The notes under the pieces: model-generated
Seen by the model: the letters and a program-made list of their open reading frames with translations, nothing else
Told to the model about the DNA's origin: nothing
The model's database searches: none
Assembly: GCF_036898465.1 (NCBI RefSeq)
Contig: NZ_JARUMJ010000001.1
Location: 9,088,430-9,152,429 of the forward strand
Direction: 5' to 3'
DNA length: 64,000 bases
From: Streptomyces sp. B21-105
GTDB lineage: Bacteria; Actinomycetota; Actinomycetes; Streptomycetales; Streptomycetaceae
Position numbers and translations under genes: made by a program
Shown here: piece after piece, positions 11,378-59,820 of the stretch
How the letters are laid out: each line of letters opens with the position of its first letter
How positions within the stretch are numbered: position 1 is the first letter of the stretch

Positions 11378-11512
11378 GACGACGAACGCACCATCGTTCA
11401 CGAGAACGTCGCCCGTGTCAGGGCGACCCTGGACTGGATCGAGACCGCAGTCGACACCGGCAAGGTGGACGTCGACGGCGAGCTGGCACGTCTGCTGCAA
11501 GGCGAGTAGGCG
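11378..11512 (+). pseudogene. 3' tail of a DUF6192-like gene (cassette copy A)
   Basis: The last 44 codons or so (DDERTIVHENVARVRATLDW ... ELARLLQGE) align with the C-termini of the DUF6192-like proteins at 28087-29100 and 57381-58400. The rest of the gene has been replaced by an IS110 fragment. Its stop precedes the next start by 1 bp, as in the other copies. Confidence 0.7.
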
Positions 11513-11941
11513 ATGCCCCGCGCTTCCGAGCGCAGATCACCCGCCGCCCCACGACACGCCGACACCGTCCGGTTCGTGCTCTTCGAGGCCCGCCCGGCCG
11601 GTCTGACCTTCAACCAACTGGTCAGGTCCAGCGAACTGTCGCCCCACCAGACCCGCTCGGGCCTGGCCTGCCTGCGGGACACCATCACCGAACGCGGGGG
11701 GCCTCCCCTGATCTGGACCCGCCCGGACGGCTACAAGTTCTGCGCCGACCCCGCCGAGCTCCAGGCATACGAGGTCGCGGTCATCCGTGGGAAGCTCACC
11801 GAGATCCGCAGGTTCATCACCGGGACCGTCGCCCCACATGCCGTCCTCCAGCCCAAGGGACGGTGGATCAAACACCTCAACACCCAGCTCAACTCGGTCG
11901 AGTCCACACTCGACGTCATCGCCGACTTCACCGACGCCTGA
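11513..11941 (+). CDS. RacP-like small protein (cassette copy A)
   Basis: 142 residues from ATG 11513. It aligns over its length, at low identity, with the proteins at 29103-29510 and 56964-57377. Shared landmarks are EARPAGLTFNQL near residue 24, a winged-helix-like stretch with RSGLACLRD, a WTRPDGYKF turn near residue 70 and RFITGTV near residue 105. The fold suggests a DNA-binding wHTH with a helical tail, but this is inference. I recall such proteins labelled RacP in Streptomyces genomes; the label says little about function. It follows a truncated DUF6192-like gene and precedes an IS5-type transposase, as in the other two copies. Confidence 0.65.
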   Translation: MPRASERRSPAAPRHADTVRFVLFEARPAGLTFNQLVRSSELSPHQTRSGLACLRDTITERGGPPLIWTRPDGYKFCADPAELQAYEVAVIRGKLTEIRRFITGTVAPHAVLQPKGRWIKHLNTQLNSVESTLDVIADFTDA

Positions 11942-11943
11942 CC

Positions 11944-11976
11944 GGCGGGGCCGGCCGCGAAGCGGCCGGCCCCGCC
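11944..11976 (+). terminator. Strong GC hairpin between RacP-like and transposase genes
   Basis: A perfect 15-bp stem (11944-11958 with 11962-11976) with a 3-base loop, followed by ccgtcttt. It would reduce read-through from the RacP-like gene into the transposase gene. Confidence 0.75.
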
Positions 11977-11997
11977 CCGTCTTTCAGGGAGGGAACG

Positions 11998-12867
11998 TTG
12001 TCACGGCGACGCTGCTACCCCTCCGACACCTGGGACGACGAATGGGCCCTGCTCGAACCCCTGTTGCCGACACCGGCCTGCGAAACGAAGGCGGGCGGCC
12101 GTCCAGAAAAGCACCCCCGCCGGGAGATCGTCGACGCGATCCGCTATGTCGTCGACACCGGATGCAAGTGGAGGGCCCTGCCCAAGGACTTCCCGCCCTG
12201 GCGCACGTGTTACGGATTCATGGCCCGCTGGGCTGCCGCTGGCGTCATCGGGCAGATCCGTGACCAGCTCCGCAAGCGGATCCGCCGCGAGATGGGCAAG
12301 GCGCCCGGAGCGGTCGCCACCGTCATCGACTCCCAGTCGATCAAGGCCGCCGAGACCGTCGGCAAGGACTCTCGCGGCTACGACGCCGGCAAGAAAATCA
12401 ATGGCCGTAAGCGGCACCTGGTCGTGGACACCAAGGGTCTGCCGCTGTTCGTCATGGTCACCCCGGCCGACATGACCGACCGCAACGCGGCCAAGGAAGT
12501 GCTGTTCCGGCTGCGGCTGATGCACCCCGAGATCACCATCGTCTGGGCCGACTCCGCCTATACCGGACAGCTCGTGACCTGGGCGAAGACCTACCTGAAC
12601 CTGACGATCAAGACCGTCAGCCGCCCGAACGATGCCTCCGCGTTCGTCGTTCTGCCCCGGTGCTGGGTCGTCGAACGCTCACACGCCTGGGTCATGCACG
12701 TCCGTCGGCACGCGCGCGACTATGAACGGCTCATCCAGCACTCGGAATCGCTCATCACCTGGGCCGCGATCACCCTTATGACCAGGCGCATCACCCGCCG
12801 AAACTCCCGCAGGAGCGGACAGCTGGCCTCCCGCGAGGCCCAACGCGACCGATCGTCTCGGCGCTGA
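11998..12867 (+). CDS. IS5-family transposase (cassette copy A)
   Basis: 289 residues. TTG at 11998 is chosen because GGGAGGG stands 6-12 bp upstream and the protein then begins SRRRCYPSDTWDDEW, like its relatives. DDE features seen: GGRPEKHPRREIVDAIRY with WRALPKDFPPW (N-terminal DUF4096-like domain), VIDSQSIKA with the first aspartate, IVWADSAYTG with the second and CWVVERSHAW with the catalytic glutamate. The gene looks intact. It is clearly diverged from the transposases at 56063-56926 and 29550-30406 but has the same neighbour upstream. No terminal inverted repeat was found for this copy. Confidence 0.85.
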   Translation: MSRRRCYPSDTWDDEWALLEPLLPTPACETKAGGRPEKHPRREIVDAIRYVVDTGCKWRALPKDFPPWRTCYGFMARWAAAGVIGQIRDQLRKRIRREMGKAPGAVATVIDSQSIKAAETVGKDSRGYDAGKKINGRKRHLVVDTKGLPLFVMVTPADMTDRNAAKEVLFRLRLMHPEITIVWADSAYTGQLVTWAKTYLNLTIKTVSRPNDASAFVVLPRCWVVERSHAWVMHVRRHARDYERLIQHSESLITWAAITLMTRRITRRNSRRSGQLASREAQRDRSSRR

Positions 12868-26451: not shown

Positions 26452-27570
26452 ATGAGTACGGGGGCTCTCCTGTTCAGGATGAGCCATCAGTTTCCTGGAG
26501 CGTTAATCACCGCCCACCAGCGCAGAGGGAAAGCGTCTCTGACAGAGGCCGATACGCCCTCTACGGCGCGCATGGCACGCACATGGACAAGACTGCACGA
26601 ACACCTCGGATGCCCGCCTGGTCCTCTCACCTTCGACATGGTCCGCCAGGCCGCGGTAGACAACCTGGAGGAGTCCGACGACCTGGACTGGAAGGAGATG
26701 CTTCCCCAGCCGCCCCGGGACGGCCGGTGGAACGAGTTCGCCAAGGACGTCGCCGCCATGGCAAACACCCGCGGCGGGCTGATCATCTTCGGGGTCCAGG
26801 ACAAGACGACCGTCCTGACGGGCATCGACCCCGACGAGGTCAACCGGCAGCAGTACGCCCAGTGGATCCGCAACCACGTCCAGCCCTACCTGCCGGACCT
26901 GGACATATTCGAGCTGACCGACGGGACGAAGACGGTCCTGGTCGTCGATGTGCCAGCCAGCGAGATGGCACCGCACTTCGTGTACGGCGGCGCAGCACGC
27001 GACAAGGAACAGCAGACTGCGGTCGTCCCCTACCGGGACAACGACCACACCGCCTGGATGGCAGAGCACCAGATCGAGCGGGCCTACCGCGACCGCTTCG
27101 CCCGCGTCGGCCGGGCAGAGGAAGAAATCCAGCGTCACATCGACTTCACCACCCAGACCATCTCCGCGCACGCCTACGCGCCCTCGGCATGGTTCCTCGC
27201 GGTCTCCCGGCCTCAGCGGCCCCTGCCGCGCGGTGCCTATACGATGAACCGTGATGAGGCACGGGAGGTCCTGGAGGCCGCCAAGACACGAGCCCGCCTT
27301 CTGCACGCGAGAGAGCTGGTGCCCGGCCCCCTGGTCGGGATGGGGCCGGATATCCGGCTTAACCCGCGCCCCGGTCTGCGCCGCTGGGTGTGCAACAACC
27401 TCCAGTCACCCATGAACCGGGAGATCATCACCGAGCTGCACTACGACGGCACTGTGGTGATGGCCGCCAACCTGTCCTTCATCCGCGAGGGGGGCGCGGA
27501 GCTCCCAGGAAAAGACGACGGCCTCCGGGTGTCTGAGTGCGTGTTTTTGAAGGCTGGTGTTGAGGTCTGA
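26452..27570 (+). CDS. AlbA_2 (Schlafen-AlbA-like) domain protein, C-terminus cut by a mobile element
   Basis: 372 residues from ATG 26452, or about 332 from ATG 26572. Seen: ESDDLDWKEMLPQPPRDGR and ANTRGGLIIFGVQDKT, the paired motifs of the AlbA_2 domain (usually annotated as putative DNA- or ATP-binding), then VLVVDVPASEMAPHFVYGGA and YRDNDHTAWM. The domain is common in regulators and in defence-associated proteins of actinobacteria; the actual role is unknown. The last 11 codons lie in a transposon end that begins at about 27537 (GTGTTTTTGA), so the natural C-terminus is lost. Confidence 0.7.
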   Translation: MSTGALLFRMSHQFPGALITAHQRRGKASLTEADTPSTARMARTWTRLHEHLGCPPGPLTFDMVRQAAVDNLEESDDLDWKEMLPQPPRDGRWNEFAKDVAAMANTRGGLIIFGVQDKTTVLTGIDPDEVNRQQYAQWIRNHVQPYLPDLDIFELTDGTKTVLVVDVPASEMAPHFVYGGAARDKEQQTAVVPYRDNDHTAWMAEHQIERAYRDRFARVGRAEEEIQRHIDFTTQTISAHAYAPSAWFLAVSRPQRPLPRGAYTMNRDEAREVLEAAKTRARLLHARELVPGPLVGMGPDIRLNPRPGLRRWVCNNLQSPMNREIITELHYDGTVVMAANLSFIREGGAELPGKDDGLRVSECVFLKAGVEV

Positions 27571-27590
27571 ACGTTGCGACGATCAGGGTT

Positions 27591-27898
27591 GTGGTGTCGC
27601 GAGGGGTGGTTCGGCGGTACTGCCGGGAGTGTGGTGATCCGTTGCCGTCGACGAGGGCGGTGACGGCAGTGTCTGCTCCAGCAGATGCAGGTCGCGGCAC
27701 TGGCGGGTGCTTGAGCAGACCCGGCTGAGGGTGGTGGCGATCCAGTCCGGGGAACAGGCTGAGTGCCCGGTGTGCAGGCGGTGCTGGACGGTGGGGGTCG
27801 AGCGCGCACGGTCGGCGGTGTACTGCTCGCCGCGGTGCCGGGTGACAGCCTGTCGGGAACGGCAGGCGTCACGAAACAGTGTTGCGGAAACGCCGTAG
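27591..27898 (+). pseudogene. Zinc-ribbon protein of the cassette, frameshifted (copy B)
   Basis: Homologue of the intact gene at 58595-58903. Seen in frame 1: VVRRYCRECGDPLPS. In another frame: EQTRLRVVAIQSGEQAECPVC and WTVGVERARSAVYCSPRCR. One T is missing near 27671 (gtgtctgctcc where copy C implies gtgttctgctcc); restoring it rejoins both halves and the second CxxxC pair. Each half holds two Cys pairs, so two treble-clef or zinc-ribbon units per protein are expected. Confidence 0.7.
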
Positions 27899-27962
27899 CC
27901 GAACGGAAGTTGGGCCCCGGGGTCCCCGTGCGTTGTTCACGGACCGAATTGGCGGACGGTGT

Positions 27963-27975
27963 GCGCTTCGAGCGC
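27963..27975. promoter_or_regulatory. Conserved inverted repeat between zinc-ribbon and DUF6192-like genes (copy B)
   Basis: gcgcttcgagcgc has 5-bp arms around tcg. The same 13 bases occur in the same place in copy C (58518-58530, complement), and roughly 30 bp after it are also conserved although the rest of the intergenic DNA is not. It may be an operator or a promoter element for the three genes that follow. Confidence 0.5.
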
Positions 27976-28086
27976 CCCCGTTTCGCGCTCTGCCCCGCGA
28001 TCTCGGGTCCGCGCCACCGTTTGAGGTGGACTGGAAGGGTGTCATGTTGACGGTTGCCGTGGGGCGGCCGGCCCGGCCAGGGCGGG

Positions 28087-29100
28087 ATGGTGAGCGTCGT
28101 GTCGGAGCGGATCGGGAACGTCACTCGGGCGCGTTACGAGCAGATCGTGGCCGAGGCGCGGGAGCTGATCGCGCAGGTCTCGCGAGCTCAATTCGCTCTG
28201 GGTGACAAGGCGTTGGAGATTGAGCCGATGAGGCCGGTGGGCGGTTCGATGCCGAACGGGACCGACGATCTGTACACGGTGGAAGAGTCGTTGCAGATCT
28301 TCGCCGACGACATCGGGGTCGCGCGGGCGAACAGTGGAGGACTGGCGGTGGACGGCGAACAGGTGGCCGGCCGCGTGGCGCAGAGACGGGGTGTCCTTCA
28401 CCGTGCACCGGGTGCTGGCGTCGGTCACGGATGAGGCGGAACGGTGGGCGGCGATCGAGGATCCGCCGTTCAACCAGCGCACCGGTCAGCGCCGCAGGAC
28501 GCCGGACTCCGGGAAGCGGCTGGTGGGGCAGCGGGTGGAGCGTCCGGTGACGGTGGAGGAGAAGGTCCAGGCGGTGACCCACCTGGTCCGCGACGACGAG
28601 GTCGCCGGGCAGGTCGCCACCGGTCTGCTGCGGCGCCCGGCGGTTTCCTCGCAGGTCAGCCCGGAGGACAAGGTAAGGGTCGTGCAGGAGCTGGCCCGGG
28701 ACGACGAGGTCGCCGGGCAGGTCACGGCCGATCTGCTGCAATGGCCGGCGGTCGCGCGGCGGGTGATGCGGGACACCACCACGCGGATGGCGGTCAACCG
28801 GGCGCAGTTCGACAACTCCGAGGAGACCCGCGAGCAGATCCGCGAGCGGACTCCGGCGGTGCGGCAGATCGAGCACACCATCGAGTATCTGGACCTGGTG
28901 GGGTCCTGTCACAGCTACGTCGCCGCGTTGGGCAGGCTGGTGCCGCGGCTACGGGGCCAGGAGTTCACCAAGGACGAGCGCGAGACCGTCCGCCGGGGCA
29001 TCGCGAAGGTGCGGGCGGCGGCCGACTGGCTCGAATCGCGGTCGACCACGGCGAGTTCACCCTCGACGAGCAACTGGCCGCGCTCCTCAAAGGCGAGTAG
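28087..29100 (+). pseudogene. DUF6192-like protein, two frameshifts (copy B)
   Basis: Follows copy C (57381-58400) throughout: ERIGNVTRARYEQIVAEARE, FALGDKALEIEPMRPVGGS and DDLYTVEESLQIFADDIGV in the first frame, VEKVQAV-type and VRDDEVAGQVATGLLRRPAV repeats in the second, then HGEFTLDEQLAALLKGE in the third. Breaks lie near 28330 and 29035. The start ATG 28087 corresponds to copy C's start. Confidence 0.75.
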
Positions 29101-29102
29101 CC

Positions 29103-29510
29103 GTGCCCCGTGCGGCACGGCCGCTCGCGGAGCACTACGGCGACCTGGTCTGGGCCTCACTGATCGAGGCCCGTCCCGCCGGACTCCACACCCGGCAGCT
29201 GGTGGCCGCGACGCGGCTGAAGAAATCCCAGGTCGCCCGGGGGATCCGACATCTTCGCGACGTCGCGGCGGCGGAACACCTCACCCCGATCATCTACACC
29301 TACAAGGACGGCTACGTCTTCTCCGATGAGCCGGCGGACTGGATCGAGTACGAGAAGAAGCAGTTCCGGCAGATCCTCGGTCGTCTCACCCGGGTGATCA
29401 CGGGCACGCTCGACCCGCACCTGGCCCGCTGCCCGGAGGACGAGTGGGCCCAGCTCGCCGTCGCCCAGCTCACCGGGGTGCGCGCCACCCTCGCCCAGCT
29501 CTCCAAATAG
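29103..29510 (+). CDS. RacP-like small protein (copy B)
   Basis: 135 residues from GTG 29103, two bases after the DUF6192-like stop. Highly similar to the copy C protein: PLAEHYGDLVWASLIEARPAGLH, ATRLKKSQVARGIRHLRDV (probable winged-helix recognition part), YTYKDGYVFSD, and FRQILGRLTRVITGTLDPHL near residue 95. Intact, although its neighbours on both sides are broken. Likely DNA-binding by fold; no role demonstrated. Confidence 0.7.
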   Translation: MPRAARPLAEHYGDLVWASLIEARPAGLHTRQLVAATRLKKSQVARGIRHLRDVAAAEHLTPIIYTYKDGYVFSDEPADWIEYEKKQFRQILGRLTRVITGTLDPHLARCPEDEWAQLAVAQLTGVRATLAQLSK

Positions 29511-29549
29511 CCTCCGCCTCAACCTCCCGCCCCGTCTACCGAGACCGCT

Positions 29550-30406
29550 ATGCCCACCGTCCAGCGCCGCCGCTGCTATCCCTCGGACACCACCCCCGCC
29601 GAATGGGCCCTGCTCCAGCCCCTGCTTCCGGGTCCCGGCCTGCCAGACCAAGAAGGGCGGTCGGCCGGAGAAGCACCCGCGCCGCGAGATCGTCGATGCG
29701 ATCCGTTACATCACCGACAACGGCGCGAAGTGGCGCGCTCTGCCCTCCGACTACCCTCCGTGGGAGACGGTCTACGGGTTCTTCGCCCGCTGGAACCGCC
29801 GCGGCGTGGTCACTTATATCCGTGACCAGCTCCGGCGTCGTCTGCGTACTGGCCTGGGACGATGCCCCTATCCGGTCACGCTGATCATCGATTCGCAGTC
29901 GGTCAAGGGCGCCTCCACGGTAAGCAGGGCGACGCGAGGCTTCGATCCCGCGAAATTGATCAACGGGCGGAAGAGACACGTCGCGGTGGACACGAAGGGC
30001 TTCCCAATGATTATGGTGACGCCCGCCGACATGCAGGACCGGGACGCCGCCCGCGAACTCCTCTGGCGCCTTCGTCTCACGCACCCTCAGATCACCCAGG
30101 CCTGGGCCGACTCCGCCTACGCCGGCCAACTCGTCACCTGGGCCGAGGACTTCCTCCACATCACTCTCAAGACCGTCTCCCGCCCCAAGGGTGCCAAAGG
30201 GTTCGTCGTCCTCCCGCGCCGCTGGCGTGTGGAACGCACACTGGGATGGATCATGAACGCCCGCCGCAACGCGAGGGACTACGAACGCCTGCCCCAACAC
30301 AGTGAAGCTCACCTGAACTGGTCACTCATCACCCCTCATGACCAGGCGACTGACCCGGAAGAAGCCAGCCCGAGGTTGGGCGAAGAAGCCGAATCCCACG
30401 GGCTGA
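29550..30406 (+). pseudogene. IS5-family transposase, two frameshifts (copy B)
   Basis: Begins MPTVQRRRCYPSDTTPAEWALL, changes frame near 29640, then runs KKGGRPEKHPRREIVDAIRY, LIIDSQSVKGAST (first aspartate), AWADSAYAGQL (second), RRWRVERTLGWIMNARR (glutamate), and changes frame again near 30335, where one extra C separates ATC-ACC from ATG-ACC. With that C removed it stops at 30404-30406. Close relative of the intact transposase at 56063-56926. Confidence 0.8.
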
Positions 30407-30472
30407 GACGGCCTACGAGGACGCACCAGGATCATCGTGGCAGCGGGCAGGAGCCGGTGAGGCCGCCGAGCC

Positions 30473-30877
30473 TCAGTCGCCGTACCGGATGGAGATCTTG
30501 TCCGTGCAGTTGTCGGGCAAATTGTTGATCCGCTCGCACACCCTCATCCACTCGATGAAGTTGATCACGAAATACGACCCAGCCGTTACGCAGACGCCGT
30601 TAGAGCCGCTCGAGTCAGTCCAACTCAGGGTTTCTCCGGCTTCATTCTGCAGTTGGATGTAGACCCCACGGCCGTCCGCCTCGTTGTCGCAGATGACGAC
30701 GCGGCCAGCCGCATTGTAGTTGCCGGCCCAAAGCTCACCGACGTCGCTCCCGTGCTTCTGGAACACGAGCGGCCGGTCGGCTGCAGCCGCCGGTTCGGCC
30801 ACGACAAGACTCGCGGCGATAGCGGTGGTGGTGAGGAATGCTGCGGTTACTCGCTTGCGGACCCTGCTCAGCTCCAT
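30473..30877 (-). CDS. Small secreted protein with CDN-x-x-DGRG motif (cargo of copy B)
   Basis: 134 residues from ATG 30877. A clear Sec signal: MELSRVRKR, hydrophobic VTAAFLTTTAIAASLVVA, cleavage near EPAAAA. The mature domain contains VVICDNEADGRGVYIQL, SWTDSSGSNGVCV and VCERINNLPDNCTD, with four cysteines. It is related in layout and motif to the protein at 49970-50359. Function unknown. It lies convergent to the transposase in the cargo position, where copy C carries a transporter. Confidence 0.7.
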   Translation of the reverse strand: MELSRVRKRVTAAFLTTTAIAASLVVAEPAAAADRPLVFQKHGSDVGELWAGNYNAAGRVVICDNEADGRGVYIQLQNEAGETLSWTDSSGSNGVCVTAGSYFVINFIEWMRVCERINNLPDNCTDKISIRYGD

Positions 30878-31294
30878 GACTGTTGCTCCCCCGTAATTAT
30901 GGTCTACCCAATCTGTTGGTCTTGGAGCTTAGTTCATCCGTTGCTCCTGCGTACCTATAACTTTGCAGGGACTGTGACCATGCCATTCCCCCGCCCACCT
31001 GGTGCCGGCAGAATCTGCCTACCGCACAGAACCGGATTTGAGATCCGCCAAGGTTCAAAAACACTCCCTACGTTGTTCTGCGGGACGCGGTGAGCCCCTC
31101 GTATGGTTCACCCACCCAGGGGTGCCGGGTGTGGTTCAAAACGCTCTGCCGCTGGTGGCTTTCAGTGATTGGCCGCCCGGTGCCCCACGACGACTCGGCT
31201 GCCAATTAGGAATTGCGAATGATCGCTGAGTAGGGAATCGACAGCGAGGTCGTCCGTCGGGAGGCACCAGCACCACCCCTCACGGAGGCATCAC

Positions 31295-36915: not shown

Positions 36916-37287
36916 ATGCGCAGGGACGGCGTTCCTCGGCTGAGGCTGGTTGTGGTCACGGACGACCGCGATGATGGGCCTCGGTTGTGCCGTGGGTGCG
37001 GTGGTCCGCTGATGCCGTCGGCAAGGGCGACAGCGGTCTTCTGCTCGTCCGTCTGCCGATCGCGGCATTGGCGGCGGATGCGGCGAGCGAGGGCGAGAAC
37101 CGAGGCGGTGAAGGTCGGTGTGACGTCCAGCTGCCCGGAGTGCGGGACGTCGTGGACGGTCGGGGTCGACCATCCCGCCTCGGCAATGTACTGCTCTACC
37201 GTCTGCCGCAAACGGGCCTGGCACAGACGGGTCTGTGTAGTGAACGGTGGAACTCGGTCGGTTTTGTTTAGCGGCGTCCGGCGGTGA
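36916..37287 (+). CDS. Zinc-ribbon protein, lone cassette homologue (copy D), end altered
   Basis: 123 residues from ATG 36916. Two cysteine units: LCRGCGGPLMPSARATAVFC with VCRSRHWRRMR, and SCPECGTSWTVGVDHPASAM with YCSTVCRKRAWHRR. Clearly homologous to the cassette proteins at 58595-58903 and 27591-27898, but diverged and with a longer N-terminus. No DUF6192-like or RacP-like gene follows: the IS256 transposase fragment begins at 37268 and supplies the last codons. It is probably the stump of a fourth cassette. Confidence 0.65.
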   Translation: MRRDGVPRLRLVVVTDDRDDGPRLCRGCGGPLMPSARATAVFCSSVCRSRHWRRMRRARARTEAVKVGVTSSCPECGTSWTVGVDHPASAMYCSTVCRKRAWHRRVCVVNGGTRSVLFSGVRR

Positions 37288-37978: not shown

Positions 37979-39676
37979 GGTTCTGTCGACGATCTTGTGA
38001 TCCGGACCGTGCTGCTCATCGTGTGAGCAGGACGCGTTTGCGAAGGAGATCGAGGCTGGCCCGGCCGAACATCTGGCGCTTCAGCATCTTCAGCCGGTTG
38101 ATGTTGCCCTCGACAGCGCCGGAGCTGTGGGGCAGGGACAGCCCGTTGCGGACAGCGTCGAAGTCGCGGCGGAGGTTGTGGGCGAAGCCTGCGAGTGGAG
38201 CCAGGTTGTCCTGTTCGACAGTGGCGATCCAGTCCTCGAGGCGGTCGCCGTGGCGTCCGGTCATCATCGCGGCGAACTTTCTGACGTGACCGGTGAGCCG
38301 GTCCAGCTCGGGATCGCGCTCACGCAGGCGGTGCAGCTCGTCGGCATCCCTGCCCCGCAGGTGTTCGGGGTGGGTCATGATCCAGGAAGTGACCTCGCGG
38401 ACCGACGGGGGCTTGGGGCCCACGGCAGGTGCGTGTCCGCGCCCGGTGCGGTAGCGCCGCAGGTGTCGTTGGACGGCCAACTCCCCACCCGGGTAGCCAA
38501 GTTGTTGTATCTCGCGGTAGAGCTGTGCGGCGTTTCTGACGCCTTCGTTCCAACGCCGGTGCAGGTAGCCGACGTACGGGTCCACGATGTGCGCCCGCTG
38601 CAGGCTCTTGGCAACGACATCGTCCGCGGAGCGGGCACCCACCAGCTTGCGGACAGTGGCCTGGTGCAGCTCGAGTTTCCGGCCGATCGCCGCCTTCGAC
38701 ATCCCCTGTTCCCACAGTTCGTGGGCGGCAGCATGCTGCTCACGCAGCCGGGTCACGATCTTCAGCTCTTTTGGTGGCTGGACCACCTCGGGCTTTGCCT
38801 CCAGGTGGTCGGGGTTGCCTTCCCGGCCGGGAGGCGGTTCAGCCAGGCGGGAGCGATAGGCGTTGACTGTCTTCTCGACCGCCTGGCCGAGGTTGGCCCA
38901 CAGGTGGTAGCGGTCAGCGACCTGCTCGGCCTGCGGTGCCCCGGCCCGTGCTCCCTCGCCGTAACCGCTGGAACGGTCCCGGCAGATCACCTTCACCTCG
39001 GGGTGACCTTGCAGCCAGGCGGCCAGGTCCTCGCCCTCGCGCCCGTCATAGAGGTGCAGTGGCCGGTGGGTGGCCATGTCGATCAATATGGTGCCGTAGT
39101 GGCGGCCCTTGCGGAAGGCGAAGTCGTCGACGCCGAGTATCTCCACCTCGCCGGTCTCCGGTTCGGGCAGGGTCCTGACCAGCCGCAGGAGGGTGTCCTT
39201 GCCCACGGCGATGCCGGCCGCGGCCGCCAGGCGGGCTCCTGCCCGGCCGGCCAGAGCCAGCCCGATGTGCGTCAACAGTCCGCGCAGCAGCGGGGTGTAG
39301 CGGCTGTGCGGAGTGGTCAGTCCCGTGATCTGTTCGGCGAACGTCACCACCGTGCAGGCGGGGTTCTCGCAGCGGAAGCGGCGTACACATAACTCGATCA
39401 CGACACCGAGACCGCCCACCGCGACGTCACGGAGCTTGCGTGCGTACCGGCCGTGCACCCGAGCCGAGCTCTGTCCGCACCGGCAGGACCCGGTCGCCGC
39501 CCGCACCCGTGTCCTCAACAGCACCTTGTCCGGCCGTCGCTCGACCTCCTCGATCGTCAACGCGGACAGGTACGGAAAAAGCTCCAAGAGCACATCACGA
39601 GGGCACCCGATGCATGATCGCGAACAGTCGGCGCGACCTGCTCAACCGTCCGGATCACAAGATCGTTGACAGAACC
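37979..39676 (-). mobile_element. ISL3-family insertion sequence, copy 1
   Basis: 1698 bp. Ends are inverted repeats of about 29 bp starting ggttctgtc with one mismatch, flanked by an exact 8-bp duplication ctgacctt (37971-37978 and 39677-39684), as expected for ISL3 elements. Inserted in an IS256 transposase gene. Confidence 0.92.
38016..39593 (-). CDS. ISL3-family transposase (intact)
   Basis: 525 residues from GTG 39593. Seen: N-terminal zinc-binding cysteines (SCRCGQS and FRCENPAC), VLGVDDFAFRKG-type segment ILGVDDFAFRKGRHYGTIL near residue 170 with the first aspartate, [19 protein letters not shown] (second) near residue 220, [15 protein letters not shown], an HTH insertion, and near the end LPHSSGAVEGNINRLKMLKR with the glutamate. 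The second copy of this gene (54-59.8 kb) is interrupted; its surviving protein sequence appears identical to this one. Confidence 0.92.
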   Translation of the reverse strand: MLLELFPYLSALTIEEVERRPDKVLLRTRVRAATGSCRCGQSSARVHGRYARKLRDVAVGGLGVVIELCVRRFRCENPACTVVTFAEQITGLTTPHSRYTPLLRGLLTHIGLALAGRAGARLAAAAGIAVGKDTLLRLVRTLPEPETGEVEILGVDDFAFRKGRHYGTILIDMATHRPLHLYDGREGEDLAAWLQGHPEVKVICRDRSSGYGEGARAGAPQAEQVADRYHLWANLGQAVEKTVNAYRSRLAEPPPGREGNPDHLEAKPEVVQPPKELKIVTRLREQHAAAHELWEQGMSKAAIGRKLELHQATVRKLVGARSADDVVAKSLQRAHIVDPYVGYLHRRWNEGVRNAAQLYREIQQLGYPGGELAVQRHLRRYRTGRGHAPAVGPKPPSVREVTSWIMTHPEHLRGRDADELHRLRERDPELDRLTGHVRKFAAMMTGRHGDRLEDWIATVEQDNLAPLAGFAHNLRRDFDAVRNGLSLPHSSGAVEGNINRLKMLKRQMFGRASLDLLRKRVLLTR

Positions 39677-53646: not shown

Positions 53647-54225
53647 GCCCAGTACACCAGCCGGGCCTTCGCCGACGCCTGCCGCCAGGCCGGCGTCCGC
53701 CAGTCCATGAGCGCGATCGGCAGCTCGGCGGACAACGCGCTCGCCGAGTCCTTCAACGCGACGTTCAAACGCGAGACGCTTCAGGGCCGAAAGCACTGGT
53801 CCAGCGAACGCGAGGCCCGTCTCGACGCGTTCCGCTGGCTCAACCGCTACAACACCCGACGCCGTCATTCCCGCCTCGGACAACGCAGTCCCATCGCCTA
53901 CGAGACAGCACTCGACACAACATCAACTACCCTGGCCCAAGCCGCATAGCCCGTGTCCAAGATTCCGGGTCAAGGCCCGTCACCCCGAGGTGAAGGTGAT
54001 CTGCCGGGACCGTTCCAGCGGTTACGGCGAGGGAGCACGGGCCGGGGCACCGCAGGCCGAGCAGGTCGCTGACCGCTACCACCTGTGGGCCAACCTCGGC
54101 CAGGCGGTCGAGAAGACAGTCAACGCCTATCGCTCCCGCCTGGCTGAGTAGGTGTTTTTCAACCCGATGCCGCGTTGGCGAGCAGCTCGTCGAGTGATGC
54201 CTCGTGGGGCTCTGATCCGAGTCCC

Positions 54226-54822
54226 CTACTTGGTTTCGTTCGATTGTTCGATGGAGTGGGAGTGCCGGTGGGTTGCGACTCGTTCGCGGGTGGCGCATCG
54301 GCGGGAGCAGTAACGGCGCTCCGGGCCGCCGCCTTGGGCGATGAAGACGTTCTGGCAGCTAGTTGAGGCGCAGATCCTTCCCGGCGGGCGTTGGCGGTCC
54401 CAGACGAGGACGGTCAGGGCCATGCAGGAGGAGGCGAGGAGCCACTCGTCCCAGGCGGCGTTGTCGTCGTGGTCCAGGTGAGGATGCCAGGGGGTGTTGC
54501 CGCCGTGCGAGGTCAGGCGGAGCGGTCCGGTGTGGTCCAAGAGAAGGCGGTTGAGGGTGGCCGCGGCGCCGTCCGCGTGCTCGGCCGCGAAGACTTGCCG
54601 CAGTAGGTCAGCGGCTGCGCGCATCCCGGCAACATCCCGAGTCGTGAGTTCGATGGGGTCAGCCTCACCGTATGCACGAAGCACGCCGGCGACGGCGATT
54701 GGGTCAGGGTGCTCGTCAGCGAGGGCGTTGATCAGGGCGGCGGTGCGCCGAGCCGTGGTCAGCACGGAGTGCCGAGTGGACCAGTCGTCGCTGTTGAAGG
54801 ACACCTGCGGAATGTAACGCAT
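54226..54822 (-). CDS. CGNR-type zinc-finger regulator (cargo of copy C)
   Basis: 198 residues from ATG 54822. The N-terminal helical part (DDWSTRHSVLTTARRTAALI near residue 12, TRDVAGMRAAADLLRQVFAA near residue 65) is the ABATE-like domain; the C-terminal zinc finger reads RICASTSCQNVFIAQ then RRYCSRRCATRERVATHR, with the Cys-x4-Cys and Cys-x3-Cys ligands of the CGNR family. Such proteins are transcription regulators often divergent from an MFS exporter, as here. The likely operator is the GTTAC-N4-GTAAC palindrome in the 38-bp gap between the two starts. Confidence 0.8.
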   Translation of the reverse strand: MRYIPQVSFNSDDWSTRHSVLTTARRTAALINALADEHPDPIAVAGVLRAYGEADPIELTTRDVAGMRAAADLLRQVFAAEHADGAAATLNRLLLDHTGPLRLTSHGGNTPWHPHLDHDDNAAWDEWLLASSCMALTVLVWDRQRPPGRICASTSCQNVFIAQGGGPERRYCSRRCATRERVATHRHSHSIEQSNETK

Positions 54823-54837
54823 CTTGCTGAGTTTTGA

Positions 54838-54851
54838 GTTACCTCCGTAAC
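54838..54851. promoter_or_regulatory. Palindrome between regulator and MFS starts
   Basis: gttacctccgtaac: perfect 5-bp arms with a 4-bp spacer, 9 bp before the MFS start codon and 15 bp from the regulator start. It is well placed for joint control of both genes; it also contains the cctcc/ggagg core. Confidence 0.5.
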
Positions 54852-54860
54852 GTCTTGTCG

Positions 54861-56063
54861 ATGACAAAGCGTTACTCACTCCGCTTCTATCTCGCTGGAG
54901 CAGTGGCAGCTCGTGCGGGGGACGAGATGTCGGGACCGTCGCTGATGCTGGCAGCATTCGCCCTGGCCGGATCGGCCGTCGACGCGTCGTCGCTGCTCGC
55001 GGGCATCACGATCTCTGCTGCGGTGGGTGGGCCGGTGCTCGGAGCGCTCCTTGACAGAGCCGGACGGCCGGGACGCCTGCTGACCGGGGCCCTCGTCCTG
55101 TATGCGGCGGGGCTGGGGATGATTCTCGCGGGACTGGGCCGCTTGCCGTTCGGTGTCACCATCGTGATCGCTGTGGTGGCGGGGCTGCTGGGGCCGGCCC
55201 TGTCGGGCGGATGGACGGCCCAGCTGCCCCGTGTGGTGCTGGGCGACCGCCTGCCCCGGGCAAACGCGCTCGATGCCATGACGTTCAGCGTGGCGAGTCT
55301 GGCCGGTCCGGCTCTCGCAGGGGGCGTTGCGGAGACGCTGGGGGCCTCGACGGCCGTGGTGGTCTCCGCGGTGCTCATCGGCTTGGCGCTGCCCGCTGCC
55401 TGGATGCTGCCCGCCCGTTCCGGCCGGACGCAGGGTGCTCAGGCAAGCTCAGTGGTCAGTGATCTCGCTGCTGGTCTGCGAGTCGTCGTCGGGAGACCGT
55501 CATTGGCCCGAGCGACCCTCACCTCGGTCCTCTCGTGCTTTGCTCAGGGCATGCTGGCGGCCTGTATTCCGCTCCTGGGCGAGCGCGTCCTGGGCGGAGC
55601 CGGCCGCGGCGCGGTGCTGCTCTCCTGCACGGCGATCTCCGCGATGATGGCCAACGCCGTACTCGCGCGGTTTCCACGTGTGGTCGCCCCCGACACGGTT
55701 ATCTGGGTCAGTGCCCTTGTCCAGGCTGCCGCGTTGTCCTTGGCCATATGGGGTCAACCAGCCGTGCTCATCGTGGCCGTACTCATCGCCGGGATCGGTG
55801 AGGGACCTCAATTGGCTGCCTTGTTCGCAGTCCGCCACCGGGAGGCCCCTGAACGACTGCGCGGGCAGATATTCACCACCGGCGCCAGCTTGAAGATCAC
55901 CGGATTCGCCCTGGGGCGGCGGTTGCCGGACCGGTCGCGACCCGGTCCCTTCCAGGCACCTTGGCGCTCGCAGCGAGCGTGGCAGTCCTCGCCGCACTGG
56001 GATTCTTCGCTGTCCCGTCGGCATCTGCCACCCCGTCCGAGGACCGTGCGACATCGGATTGAT
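54861..56063 (+). pseudogene. MFS transporter, one-base frameshift near the C-terminus (cargo of copy C)
   Basis: About 400 residues from ATG 54861: YLAGAVAARAGDEMSGPSLM, a GxxxDRxGRR-like LGALLDRAGRPGRLLTG near residue 60, and a run of hydrophobic helices to LKITGFALG near residue 352, where one G appears to be missing from a run near 55914. In the next frame the protein continues AAVAGPVATRSLPGTLALAA and stops at 56061-56063, one base into the convergent transposase stop. Because everything else is intact, an assembly error is possible. Probable drug or metabolite exporter under control of the CGNR-type protein. Confidence 0.78.
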
Positions 56064-56926
56064 CAGGCGCGGGCTGCCGGAGGCTTCTTGGTCCACTGGC
56101 TGGTGCGGGGGCTCTTTCGGGTGAGGCGCCGGGTCATCATGGTGATGAGTGCCCAGTTCAGGTGGGCTTCGGAGTGCTGGGGAAGGCGTTCGTAGTCGCG
56201 CGCGTTGCGGCGGGCGTTCATGCACCAGCCGATCGTGCGCTCGACTTTCCAGCGGCGGGGCAGGACGACGAAGCCCTTGGCCCCTTTGGGCCGGGAGACG
56301 ATGCGGAGGCTGAGCCAGAGGCGTTCGCGGGCCCAGCCCACAAGTTCACCGGCGTAGCCGCGGTCGGCCCAGACCTGGGTGATCTGCGGCTGAGTGAGGC
56401 GCAAGCGCCAGAACACGTCGCGGGCGGCGTCGCGGTCCTGGATATCGGCGGGCGTCACCGTGATCATCACGGGCAGGCCGAGGGTGTCCACGGTGATATG
56501 TCGCTTGCGGCCGTTGATCTTCTTCGCGGCGTCGTAGCCACGGCTGTTCCTGCCAACGGTGGAGGCGCCCTTGACCGACTGGGAGTCGACGATCAGCGTG
56601 ACCGGGTGCGGGCAGCGGCCCTTGCCGGTACGAATTCGGCGGCGGAGCTGGTCACGGATGTAAGTGACGACCCCGGCCCGGTTCCACCGCCAGAAAAACC
56701 CGTAAACCGTCTCCCACGGAGGGAAATCCGCAGGCAGGGCCCGCCACTTCGCGCCGTTGTCGACGATGTAGCGGATGCCGTCGACGATCTCCCGCCGGGG
56801 CCACTTCTCCGGATGCCCGCCGGTCTTGGTCTGGCAGGCCGGGACGGGCAGCAGGGGTTCCAGCAGTGCCCATTCGGCGACGGAGGTGTCGGACGGGTAG
56901 CGGCGGCGACGGGGGACAGCGGGCAT
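56063..56926 (-). CDS. IS5-family transposase of the cargo transposon (copy C, intact)
   Basis: 287 residues from ATG 56926. Seen: RRYPSDTSVAEWALLEPLLP at the N-terminus, GGHPEKWPRREIVDGIRYIV and WRALPADFPPWETVYGFFWR (DUF4096-like domain), then VTLIVDSQSVKGASTVGRNS (first aspartate), VWADRGYAGELVGWAR (second) and RRWKVERTIGWCMNARRNAR (glutamate). No frame break. It is preceded at 37 bp by the RacP-like gene and appears to be the last gene of a four-gene row. It is the only intact transposase inside the 54148-58957 element. Confidence 0.9.
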   Translation of the reverse strand: MPAVPRRRRYPSDTSVAEWALLEPLLPVPACQTKTGGHPEKWPRREIVDGIRYIVDNGAKWRALPADFPPWETVYGFFWRWNRAGVVTYIRDQLRRRIRTGKGRCPHPVTLIVDSQSVKGASTVGRNSRGYDAAKKINGRKRHITVDTLGLPVMITVTPADIQDRDAARDVFWRLRLTQPQITQVWADRGYAGELVGWARERLWLSLRIVSRPKGAKGFVVLPRRWKVERTIGWCMNARRNARDYERLPQHSEAHLNWALITMMTRRLTRKSPRTSQWTKKPPAARA

Positions 56927-56963
56927 GGAGGGCTCAGCAGGGGTGATCGGCGGTGGGCAGAGG

Positions 56964-57377
56964 CTATTTGGAGAGCTGGGCAAGAGTGGCGCGGACGCCG
57001 GTGAGTTGGGCGGTGGCGAGCTGGGCCCATTCGTCGTCGGGGTAGCGGGCCAGGTGCGGATCGAGCGTGCCCGTGATCACCCGGGTGAGGCGGCCGAGGA
57101 TCTGCCGGAATTGCCGCTTGTCGTACTCGATCCAGTCCGCGGGGTCGTCGGAGAACATGAACCCGTCGCGGCGTGTCCATGTGATCGGCGTCAGGTTCTC
57201 CGCGGCGACGACGTCGCGGACGTGCCGGATGCCGCGGCCGATCTGCGAGCGGGTCAGGCGGGTGGCGGCCATGAGCTGGTAGGTGTGCAGGCCGGCGGGG
57301 CGTGCTTCCATCAGGGCGACGCGGACCAGGTCGCCGTAGTGCTCGGCCAGCGGCCGGGCCTCCCGGCGTCGCGGCAT
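56964..57377 (-). CDS. RacP-like small protein (copy C, intact)
   Basis: 137 residues from ATG 57377, three bases after the DUF6192-like stop. Seen: RPLAEHYGDLVRVALMEARP then LHTYQLMAATRLTRSQIGRG (winged-HTH-like), NLTPITWTRRDGFMFSDDPA (wing-like turn), and WIEYDKRQFRQILGRLTRVI with a helical tail ending LAQLSK. The three copies in this window keep this layout. Presumed DNA-binding protein; possibly a regulator of, or accessory to, the transposase, which is inference from constant position only. Confidence 0.72.
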   Translation of the reverse strand: MPRRREARPLAEHYGDLVRVALMEARPAGLHTYQLMAATRLTRSQIGRGIRHVRDVVAAENLTPITWTRRDGFMFSDDPADWIEYDKRQFRQILGRLTRVITGTLDPHLARYPDDEWAQLATAQLTGVRATLAQLSK

Positions 57378-57380
57378 GGC

Positions 57381-58400
57381 CTACTCGCCCTTGAGCAGCT
57401 GGACCAGCTGCTCATCAAGGGTGAACTCGCCGTTGTCGAGGGCTCCTTCGAGCCAGTCCGCCGCGGCGCGGACCCGGCCGATCTGCCGGCGGACGGTCTC
57501 ACGTTCGTCCTCGGTGAACTCCTGCCCCCGCAGCTGCGGGACCAGGCGGCCCAGGGTGGCTACGAAGTTGTGGCAGGAGCCGACCAGGTCGAGGTACTCG
57601 ATGGTGTGCTCGATCGCGCGGACGGCCGGGGTGCGCTCCCGGATCCTGTCACGTGTCTCGTTGGAGTTGTCGAACTGGGCGCGGTTGACGAGCATCCGGG
57701 TGGTGTCGTCCCGCATCGTCTTCCGGGCGACATCCGGGCGGCGCAGCAGACTGCTGGTGACCTCCTGCGCGACGGTGTCGTCCCGGGTCAGCTCCGTGAC
57801 GACCCGCACCCGTTCGGCCGGAGTGACGTGCTCGGTGACCGCCGGCCGCTTCAGCAGGTCGGTGGCGACCTGGGCGGCGACCTCGTCATCACGGGTCAGG
57901 TCGGCCACGGCCTGGACCTTCTCATCCACCGTGACCGGCCGGTCGACCCGCTGGCCGACGGCCCGCTTCGCGCCGTCCGGCGTCCACTGCCTCGCCCCCG
58001 TGCGCGGGTTGAACGGCGCGTCCTCGATCGCCGCCCACCGCTCGTCCTCGTCCACGACCGACGCGAGGATGCGATGAACAGTGAACGACACGCCCTCCCT
58101 GCGGCGCTTGGCCGGCCACCGGTTGGCGGTGTAGCGCCAGTCCTCCACCGTCCGGCGCTCCACCCCGATGTCGTCCGCGAACATCTGCAACGACTCCGTC
58201 ACGGTGAACAGGTCGTCCGTGCCGTTCGGCATCGACCCGCCCACCGCCCTTATTGGCTCAATCTCCAACGCCATGTCACCGAGGGCAAATTGCGAGCGGG
58301 CGATCTGCGCGATCAGTTCCTTCGCCCGGGTGACGAGCTGTTCGTAACGCTGCCGGGTGACGTTCCCGATTCGGTCGGTCACGTCGGTCATGATGACCAC
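57381..58400 (-). CDS. DUF6192-like protein (copy C, intact)
   Basis: 339 residues from GTG 58400 (ATG 58391 also possible). Seen: DRIGNVTRQRYEQLVTRAKE, FALGDMALEIEPIRAVGGSM near residue 40, a putative HTH with LQMFADDIGVERRTVEDWRY near residue 75 and VSFTVHRILASVVDEDERWA; then two similar units, VDEKVQAVADLTRDDEVAAQ with LLKRPAV and AERVRVVTELTRDDTVAQEV with LLRRPDV (residues 150-220), and a helical C-terminus with TIEYLDLVGSCHNFVATLGR and FTLDEQLVQLLKGE. This resembles proteins I recall as DUF6192; no function is known. The layout (HTH plus repeated helical units) suggests a DNA-bound partner protein. Confidence 0.72.
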   Translation of the reverse strand: MVIMTDVTDRIGNVTRQRYEQLVTRAKELIAQIARSQFALGDMALEIEPIRAVGGSMPNGTDDLFTVTESLQMFADDIGVERRTVEDWRYTANRWPAKRRREGVSFTVHRILASVVDEDERWAAIEDAPFNPRTGARQWTPDGAKRAVGQRVDRPVTVDEKVQAVADLTRDDEVAAQVATDLLKRPAVTEHVTPAERVRVVTELTRDDTVAQEVTSSLLRRPDVARKTMRDDTTRMLVNRAQFDNSNETRDRIRERTPAVRAIEHTIEYLDLVGSCHNFVATLGRLVPQLRGQEFTEDERETVRRQIGRVRAAADWLEGALDNGEFTLDEQLVQLLKGE

Positions 58401-58517
58401 CGTCCTCGCCCGGGTCCGGCCCAGCCGCCACGACGGGACCGATCAAAGGGGCGCCGGCCCCGGTCACTGTCCACCGTGACGCGCGCGCGACACGCCGGGG
58501 CAGGGCGTGAACCAGGG

Positions 58518-58530
58518 GCGCTCGAAGCGC
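58518..58530. promoter_or_regulatory. Conserved inverted repeat between zinc-ribbon and DUF6192-like genes (copy C)
   Basis: Complement reads gcgcttcgagcgc, exactly as at 27963-27975 in copy B, followed in both by a similar GC-rich block. Candidate operator or promoter element. Confidence 0.5.
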
Positions 58531-58594
58531 TCGGCAGTCGCTCCCAACTACCTTGCAAATCCTGGGGTGTTGGAGGTGTTGGCGAGGCGTTCGG

Positions 58595-58903
58595 CTATGG
58601 CGTTTCCGTTACGCCGTTCCGTGACGCCCGCCGCTGGCGGCAGGCCCGTACCCGGCAACGGTCCGAGCAGTACACCGCCGCCTTTGACCGCTCCACTCCT
58701 ACCGTCCACGACCGCCCGCAGACCGGGCACTCCGCCTGCTCTCCCCGCTGCATCGCCATGACCCGCTGGCGAGTCTGCTGAAGCCTCCGCCACCGTCGTG
58801 ACCTGCACCGCCCCGAGCAGAACACCGCCTCCGCCGCCATCGTCTGCGGAAGCGGATCACCGCACTCCCGGCAATACCGCCGAGCCGTCCCGCCAACCCC
58901 CAC
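58595..58903 (-). CDS. Zinc-ribbon protein (copy C, intact)
   Basis: 102 residues from GTG 58903. Two zinc units: RRYCRECGDPLPQTMAAEAV with FCSGRCRSRRWRRL, and AECPVCGRSWTVGVERSKAA with VYCSDRCRVRACRQRR. Each has CxxC followed by CxxxC, the pattern of FCS/CGNR-like or treble-clef zinc sites, with arginine-rich stretches behind, consistent with nucleic-acid binding. First gene of the four-gene row, at the transposon end (54 bp from the inverted repeat). Homologues at 27591-27898 and 36916-37287. Confidence 0.7.
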   Translation of the reverse strand: MGVGGTARRYCRECGDPLPQTMAAEAVFCSGRCRSRRWRRLQQTRQRVMAMQRGEQAECPVCGRSWTVGVERSKAAVYCSDRCRVRACRQRRASRNGVTETP

Positions 58904-59820
58904 GACTCAGATCATCCAGGCGTAGCCACCTCACGGCCAGGGATCAAAAACACCTACTGAACCGCCTCCCGGCCGGGAAGGCAACCCCGACCACCTGGAG
59001 GCAAAGCCCGAGGTGGTCCAGCCACCAAAAGAGCTGAAGATCGTGACCCGGCTGCGTGAGCAGCATGCTGCCGCCCACGAACTGTGGGAACAGGGGATGT
59101 CGAAGGCGGCGATCGGCCGGAAACTCGAGCTGCACCAGGCCACTGTCCGCAAGCTGGTGGGTGCCCGCTCCGCGGACGATGTCGTTGCCAAGAGCCTGCA
59201 GCGGGCGCACATCGTGGACCCGTACGTCGGCTACCTGCACCGGCGTTGGAACGAAGGCGTCAGAAACGCCGCACAGCTCTACCGCGAGATACAACAACTT
59301 GGCTACCCGGGTGGGGAGTTGGCCGTCCAACGACACCTGCGGCGCTACCGCACCGGGCGCGGACACGCACCTGCCGTGGGCCCCAAGCCCCCGTCGGTCC
59401 GCGAGGTCACTTCCTGGATCATGACCCACCCCGAACACCTGCGGGGCAGGGATGCCGACGAGCTGCACCGCCTGCGTGAGCGCGATCCCGAGCTGGACCG
59501 GCTCACCGGTCACGTCAGAAAGTTCGCCGCGATGATGACCGGACGCCACGGCGACCGCCTCGAGGACTGGATCGCCACTGTCGAACAGGACAACCTGGCT
59601 CCACTCGCAGGCTTCGCCCACAACCTCCGCCGCGACTTCGACGCTGTCCGCAACGGGCTGTCCCTGCCCCACAGCTCCGGCGCTGTCGAGGGCAACATCA
59701 ACCGGCTGAAGATGCTGAAGCGCCAGATGTTCGGCCGGGCCAGCCTCGATCTCCTTCGCAAACGCGTCCTGCTCACACGATGAGCAGCACGGTCCGGATC
59801 ACAAGATCGTCGACAGAACC

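Follow-up and report, generated by a model that had tools for sequence, protein, structure and literature searches.

Elements of the IS5 family of insertion sequences (ISs) normally carry a single gene and are about 1 kb long; a TNA target duplication and short inverted repeats typify one subgroup. Larger relatives have been named in Streptomyces, of which Tn5714 from the S. coelicolor plasmid SCP2 (AL645771, AF395846) is the closest to the element described here. We located this element at positions 54148-58957 of a 64,000-nucleotide stretch of Streptomyces sp. B21-105 (contig NZ_JARUMJ010000001.1, positions 9,088,430 to 9,152,429; hereafter the window, numbered from its first letter). The two transposons have four core genes in common, arranged alike and encoding, from one end, a zinc-finger protein (found in Tn5714 by tblastn), a DUF6192 protein, a predicted winged-helix protein of 137 amino acids (aa), and a DDE transposase. 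The Tn5714 transposase is 76% identical to that of the window. Tn5714 is 3512 bp long and has TCA on both sides; its paired ends (GTGAGTGTTTGA and GTGACTGTTTGG, compared with GTAGGTGTTTTT in the window) differ at two positions and, with respect to the genes, are placed as in the window element. Between its transposase gene and the near end is a slot of 657 bp with one other annotated open reading frame (ORF); this passenger is a membrane protein with a DUF6518 match below the cut-off. By these comparisons, the window element is a new member of the Tn5714 group. Our principal conclusion, to which we assign a probability of roughly 0.9, is that it is a complete IS5-type unit transposon in which a four-gene module moves everything between the ends and the contents of the slot vary from element to element.

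A more distant relative than Tn5714 is found on the S. lividans plasmid SLP2 (NC_004933). Here, a DUF6192 gene, a gene like that for the 137-aa protein, and a transposase gene (64% identical) follow one another in the same order as in the window; beyond the transposase, on the passenger side, come genes for an SDR oxidoreductase and for an AraC regulator. Paired ends were not found in this SLP2 copy. We presume the locus to be Tn4811 from the annotation of its transposase as "IS5-like element IS4811 family" and from a published passage on SLP2. The passage, in PMC3017869, derives the right 15.4 kb of SLP2 from the chromosome, probably by recombination between Tn4811 copies. Because Tn5714 and Tn4811 have been named, passenger-carrying IS5-type transposons are already known. 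The initial annotation of the window, made from the letters and their ORFs, had regarded such a unit as unusual for the family; this is true of IS5 elements in general but not beside these two.

Other systems offer more remote comparisons. Passages in PMC9330008 and PMC3129680 describe transporter ISs (tISs), in which the transposase and ends of one IS transport genes that have no part in transposition. The window element is like them in that passenger genes inside the repeats move with the transposase, as indicated by a near-identical 4.8-kb copy elsewhere. It departs from them in having three more genes that stay with the transposase across relatives and a single fixed slot for its varying passengers. 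Its transposase scores above the cut-off of NF033580 (the IS5_3 model), and its short inverted repeats and 3-bp TNA duplication are those of the IS5 family, whereas four core genes plus passengers depart from the IS5 norm. In eukaryotes, a passage in PMC4890758 presents PIF/Harbinger transposons as distantly related to IS5, with 3-bp targets and a need for a second, Myb-like DNA-binding protein. To the window group, with its predicted winged-helix protein, they offer only a parallel. We found no description of a four-gene module with an exchangeable slot in the open-access literature searched, which may mislead, as the original Tn4811 and SCP2 literature lies outside it.

Boundaries and movement of the element

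The initial annotation had proposed perfect 12-bp inverted repeats at both ends of the element, a TGA duplication on both sides, and an empty target in a second ISL3 copy at about 38853. Each was recovered in the window, as listed.

54145-54147: left target-site duplication, TGA (flank comparison and empty site)
54148-54159, plus strand: terminal inverted repeat GTAGGTGTTTTT on the transposase side, which is the passenger side (exact match)
58946-58957, minus strand: terminal inverted repeat GTAGGTGTTTTT on the zinc-finger side (exact match)
58958-58960: right target-site duplication, TGA (flank comparison and empty site)
38542-39007, minus strand: empty site, an uninterrupted ISL3-type copy equal to the joined flanks (466/466 identity)

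The element measures 4810 bp between its perfect 12-bp repeats. A whole-genome search (9.2 Mb) returned two exact matches to GTAGGTGTTTTT, both of them ends of the element. With up to two mismatches allowed, there were six matches in the window, two of them exact, against 0.49 expected; inner ends were sought in the same way, and no further exact or two-mismatch copy of the 12-mer was found inside the element. When the two 300-bp flanks were joined and one TGA was removed, the result equaled the minus strand of 39007-38542 at 466/466 bases across the junction, which falls near 38839 in the empty site, not far from the position first given. Judged from this match, the insertion is therefore a clean one into one of the two ISL3-type copies in the window, and 54148-58957 is, by its boundaries, a complete transposon.

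The exact 12-mer is present in 33 of 392 genomes of the genus. In genome G226, end pairs 4811 bp apart lie near both ends of a large contig (L111, 30724-35534; L112, 9769779-9774589). The two copies share one sequence, with five substitutions and a single indel relative to the window copy over 4811 bp (99.9% identity). Their flanks are unrelated to the window flanks, have their own TGA on both sides and, once joined, give one continuous subtilisin-like reading frame. The near-identical copy, at an unrelated target where it has a TGA duplication of its own, therefore indicates that the whole 4.8-kb unit has moved as one piece, in agreement with its first description as a cleanly bounded mobile unit. 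The positions of the G226 copies are those expected for a location in terminal inverted repeats.

Related elements were surveyed from 79 genome loci with a related transposase and from genome and plasmid regions, which were oriented and searched for paired ends. Counting duplicate views of a locus once, we examined 64 candidates (58 distinct plus 6), many of them truncated contigs or remnants, and kept those whose ends differed at no more than two positions and whose 3-bp flanks were equal, flank equality being a criterion of selection. Thirty distinct elements were kept. Their end pairs were perfect in 18 cases and had one mismatch in seven and two in five; the flanks were TCA (14 elements), TGA (10), TTA (3), TAA (2), and CTA (1), which is TNA in 29/30.

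As a control, we used 39 oriented elements with a recognizable zinc-finger end, 31 of which had been preselected for showing a possible partner end. For each element, the reverse complement of its own 12-bp end was sought in an 8-kb stretch starting 2.6 kb from the zinc-finger end; one mismatch was allowed, and the same 3 bp had to follow. True ends gave a match in 22/39, and reversed, complemented, and shuffled ends gave 0 each. The 17 elements without a match include L067, L115, L173, and L049 (two mismatches), L072 (shorter than the search offset), and L048, L051, L052, and L168, which have both ends but unequal flanks; for L037, L044, L148, L154, L161, L162, L165, and L167, this search revealed no convincing partner end. 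Ends unrelated to the genes, or a lack of 3-bp duplications elsewhere, had been named at the outset as grounds for giving up the proposed element; what emerged was paired ends with equal flanks in 30 of the 64 candidates and none with the control ends.

Genes of the element and contents of the slot

The gene content first described (CGNR, MFS, IS5 transposase, RacP-like, DUF6192, and zinc ribbon) was confirmed by Pfam and NCBIfam matches and by the annotation of relatives.

54160-56083: passenger slot, from the terminal repeat to the last transposase codons (homology breakpoints against eight other elements)
54226-54957, minus strand: CGNR zinc-finger regulator, passenger; longest ORF, with the true start perhaps further downstream (PF11706, 38 bits, cut-off 24)
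54834-56062, plus strand: MFS exporter, passenger; extent from comparison with the intact copy in L111 (PF07690, 73 bits)
56063-56983, minus strand: IS5-type DDE transposase (DUF4096 plus DDE_Tnp_1), likely start 56926 (NF033580, 190.6 bits, cut-off 110)
56964-57377, minus strand: core accessory gene, 137 aa, RacP-like, predicted winged-helix protein
57381-58400, minus strand: core accessory gene, DUF6192, 339 aa (386 bits, cut-off 27)
58595-58903, minus strand: core accessory zinc-finger gene, 102 aa, two conserved Cys-rich motifs

Only the CGNR and MFS genes, which lie between the transposase stop and the near repeat, are passengers. As the current occupants of the slot, they look like a small regulator-exporter pair; the MFS reading frame is broken near its 3' end in the window copy, a defect absent from the initial annotation, and intact in the second copy (G226).

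In 8/8 close elements, homology to the window ends between -21 and +1 nucleotides from the transposase stop, and at the passenger-side end just the last 12-15 bp are common to relatives. An all-against-all blastn comparison of 33 slots (32 elements, one of them in two copies) limited DNA similarity to the two identical copies, the set L033/L034/L038/L168, and three short matches of 30-46 bp. Slot lengths range from 0.5 to 7 kb. Twenty-five of the 30 kept elements were scanned against Pfam, and 23 had a passenger match above the cut-off:

S-adenosylmethionine (SAM) methyltransferases: L033, L163, L169, L170
Leucine carboxyl methyltransferase family: L067
GNAT acetyltransferases: L041, L114, L116, L172
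SMI1/KNR4: L042, L174
Terpene synthase: L050
MATE: L072
RTX repeats: L151
DUF5937/HTH: L156
S41 peptidase: L160
NucA/NucB and DUF6461: L164
DUF5994: L166
Amidohydrolase: L173
Alpha/beta hydrolase: L049
HEAT: L064
NAD(P)-binding: L034
CGNR/MFS: window element

The slots of L115 (Tn5714) and L159 had no Pfam match above the cut-off. Those of L038, L113, L181, L182, and L183 were outside the scan; among these, the L038 slot is FolD-like through 91% DNA identity to L168, whose FolD was scanned, and the L182 slot holds an aldo/keto reductase according to its record. Some passengers share a protein family, meaning that the DNA differs between slots but the kind of gene not always. The L038 slot is a mosaic, with its proximal 890 bp (FolD) in common with L168 and its distal parts with L034. 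These L034/L038/L168 mosaics suggest recombination between elements inside the slot.

Replacement of passengers might proceed via recombination or junction formation, and would need to keep just the transposase reading frame on one side and the 12-15-bp terminal repeat on the other. A different route is known from ISEcp1, whose one-ended transposition has the transposase skip the near end and use an end-like sequence downstream; the passenger then lies beyond the retained inner end. That flanking genes joined the present elements in this manner is a possibility we hold to be doubtful. The ends of close relatives are compatible with it, as conservation spans all 45 bp compared at the zinc-finger end and 12-15 bp at the passenger end, and so are the differences at one position in seven and at two in five of the 30 end pairs. 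Perfect pairs, however, make up 18/30, which would be improbable for chance host sequences. Moreover, capture of this kind puts new DNA outside the former end, but in the present elements the previous slot gives way to another right at the transposase stop, a replacement for which one-ended capture by itself does not account.

A locus in genome G302 bears on the same question. All or part of the passenger pair is present in 58/384 genomes of the genus (E 1e-50), and the closest CGNR-MFS outside the two copies is that of G302, with 90.5% identity over window positions 54143-56103 (L212, 4573-6535). The similarity starts at an end-like sequence exactly at the place of the terminal repeat, and no core gene was detected by tblastn, both of which speak for one-ended capture. 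The similarity extends across the final 41 bp of the transposase gene as well, and with this tail the locus may be a decayed element. The joined G302 flanks were not found in 100 relatives. The locus is thus either a decayed element or a relative of the capture event.

Returning to the unit transposon with its variable slot, the group looks like a general-purpose gene shuttle, with a shared four-gene engine and mostly different passengers in the same place. Provided that the slot pattern is borne out, a small transposon from a family thought to move itself alone could spread single genes between Streptomyces chromosomes and plasmids, among them those for methyltransferases, acetyltransferases, exporters, terpene synthases, and further enzymes. 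The features above give a sequence rule for finding cargo in existing genomes: TNA, element-specific 12-bp ends, the four core genes, and a slot after the transposase. There is about an even chance, in our judgment, that Streptomyces possesses in this family a gene-capture and delivery system, in which a four-protein machine (the transposase and three small DNA-binding proteins) works with a dedicated slot, refilled again and again, between the transposase stop and a minimal 12-bp end. Were this true, its role might be comparable to that of integron cassettes or plant Pack-type transposons, with different machinery.

The conserved module and its role

All four core genes are present in 28/30 kept elements (pooled coverage of at least 0.84), and in 21/30 each of them lies in one unbroken match. 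The 28 elements with a full module are 3.4-9.9 kb in size. Core DNA identity is 89-96% among nine close elements and 89-95% between the window element and the others. Across 31 aligned sequences, the DDE residues are D114 in 31/31, D188 in 30/31, and E229 in 29/31, the remainder being gaps. The accessory proteins are less well classified: two relatives of the 137-aa protein are annotated RacP, and it has no family match in Pfam or NCBIfam; the N-terminal part of the DUF6192 protein weakly resembles a ParB/Noc DNA-binding domain in a low-confidence model; and the 102-aa protein gave just weak treble-clef matches, below the cut-off, in Pfam/NCBIfam. Ratios of nonsynonymous to synonymous substitution rates (dN/dS), computed against 11 elements, are at most 0.34 in all four core genes, ranging from 0 to 0.30 for the 137-aa gene, 0.05 to 0.27 for DUF6192, and 0.06 to 0.34 for the 102-aa gene. 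These values indicate that the module is under purifying selection.

A search of plasmids separated the module from its passengers. The region from about 56085 to 58960 (zinc finger to transposase) was found at 74-95% identity on Streptomyces plasmids, including SCP2, where the annotation is Tn5714, and CGNR-MFS had its matches elsewhere; of the 347 records with a match, none contained 80% of the unit together. Therefore, the unit consists of two parts of different history.

We propose that the module would move everything between the two short inverted repeats into TNA targets, duplicating those 3 bp. Transposition would proceed by DDE cut-and-paste, and the three accessory proteins may bind DNA and help the transposase to find the ends or bring them together. 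The initial annotation had counted all five genes besides the transposase as passengers moved by it. For CGNR and MFS this stands; the zinc-finger, DUF6192, and 137-aa genes belong instead to the conserved module kept in 28/30 elements under purifying selection. Because three of the five are part of the module, movement of the unit by that single transposase is unproven.

IS5-family elements normally need one gene, a precedent for a transposase that suffices here as well, with all five other genes carried along as passengers. L067 and L072 seem to agree with this, as they lack the DUF6192 and 137-aa genes and yet have equal flanks. They are internal-deletion derivatives that keep both ends, the duplications, and a passenger; the transposase, however, is truncated in both, and they were probably moved in trans by another element. 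We judge a self-sufficient transposase unlikely. By pooled coverage, the complete set of four genes is retained in unchanged order in 28/30 elements, against a background of varying slot genes, and the three accessory genes have dN/dS values as low as the transposase gene. No paired ends were found around nine related transposases, which is uninformative, since five of the nine have accessory genes and also showed none. The need for accessory DNA-binding proteins, known from eukaryotic PIF/Harbinger, could be tested in this bacterial IS5-type element.

That the structure arose by chance or as a composite, with a small IS5 element inside unrelated DNA that happens to be repeat-bounded, is hardly credible: the transposase does lie mid-unit, but there is one transposase and one end pair, not two IS copies around passengers; the transposase gene meets the MFS gene stop to stop and probably starts less than 40 bp from the 137-aa gene, hardly leaving room for inner ends; and a second copy with the same outer ends, in a family that recurs, contradicts it.

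Several observations weigh against a complete unit transposon with a four-gene module and a variable slot. The agreement of the 30 equal flanks is no test in itself, as they were selected for it; the test is the control, which used mostly preselected elements. At two mismatches, second equal-flank pairs arose by chance in L064, L170, and L183, and L067, L115, L173, L049, and L183 are therefore weaker cases. Flanks are unequal despite both ends in L048, L051, L052, and L168, and 34/64 candidates, many of them truncated contigs or remnants, have no accepted pair. A core gene is broken or partial in 9/30 elements; some copies are, on this alignment, partly decayed. The L113 slot, of 494 bp, contains no convincing gene, and no ORF in it passed the filter. 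A second transposase domain occurs in the slots of L034 and L160; some slots thus grew by later insertion, and such insertions, together with exchange between elements, also shape the slot as far as these comparisons reach. Finally, both the movement of the element and the presumed need for the accessory genes are read from sequence, the latter from co-occurrence and selection.

The window contains further traces of related genes. At 36982-37260 (plus strand), a further zinc-finger protein has 49% identity to the core protein of 102 aa, with no other core genes alongside in the tblastn table. A remnant of a third, more distant element occupies 11378-12780 (plus strand), with matches to the transposase (64%), the 137-aa gene (39%), and the DUF6192 C terminus (47%). 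A second, degenerate element of the Tn5714 group lies at 27537-31068 (plus strand). Its ends have two mismatches and its flanks are unequal (TGA/TAC); identities are 73% for the zinc finger, about 75% for DUF6192 (in two frames), 80% for the 137-aa gene, and 79% for the transposase.

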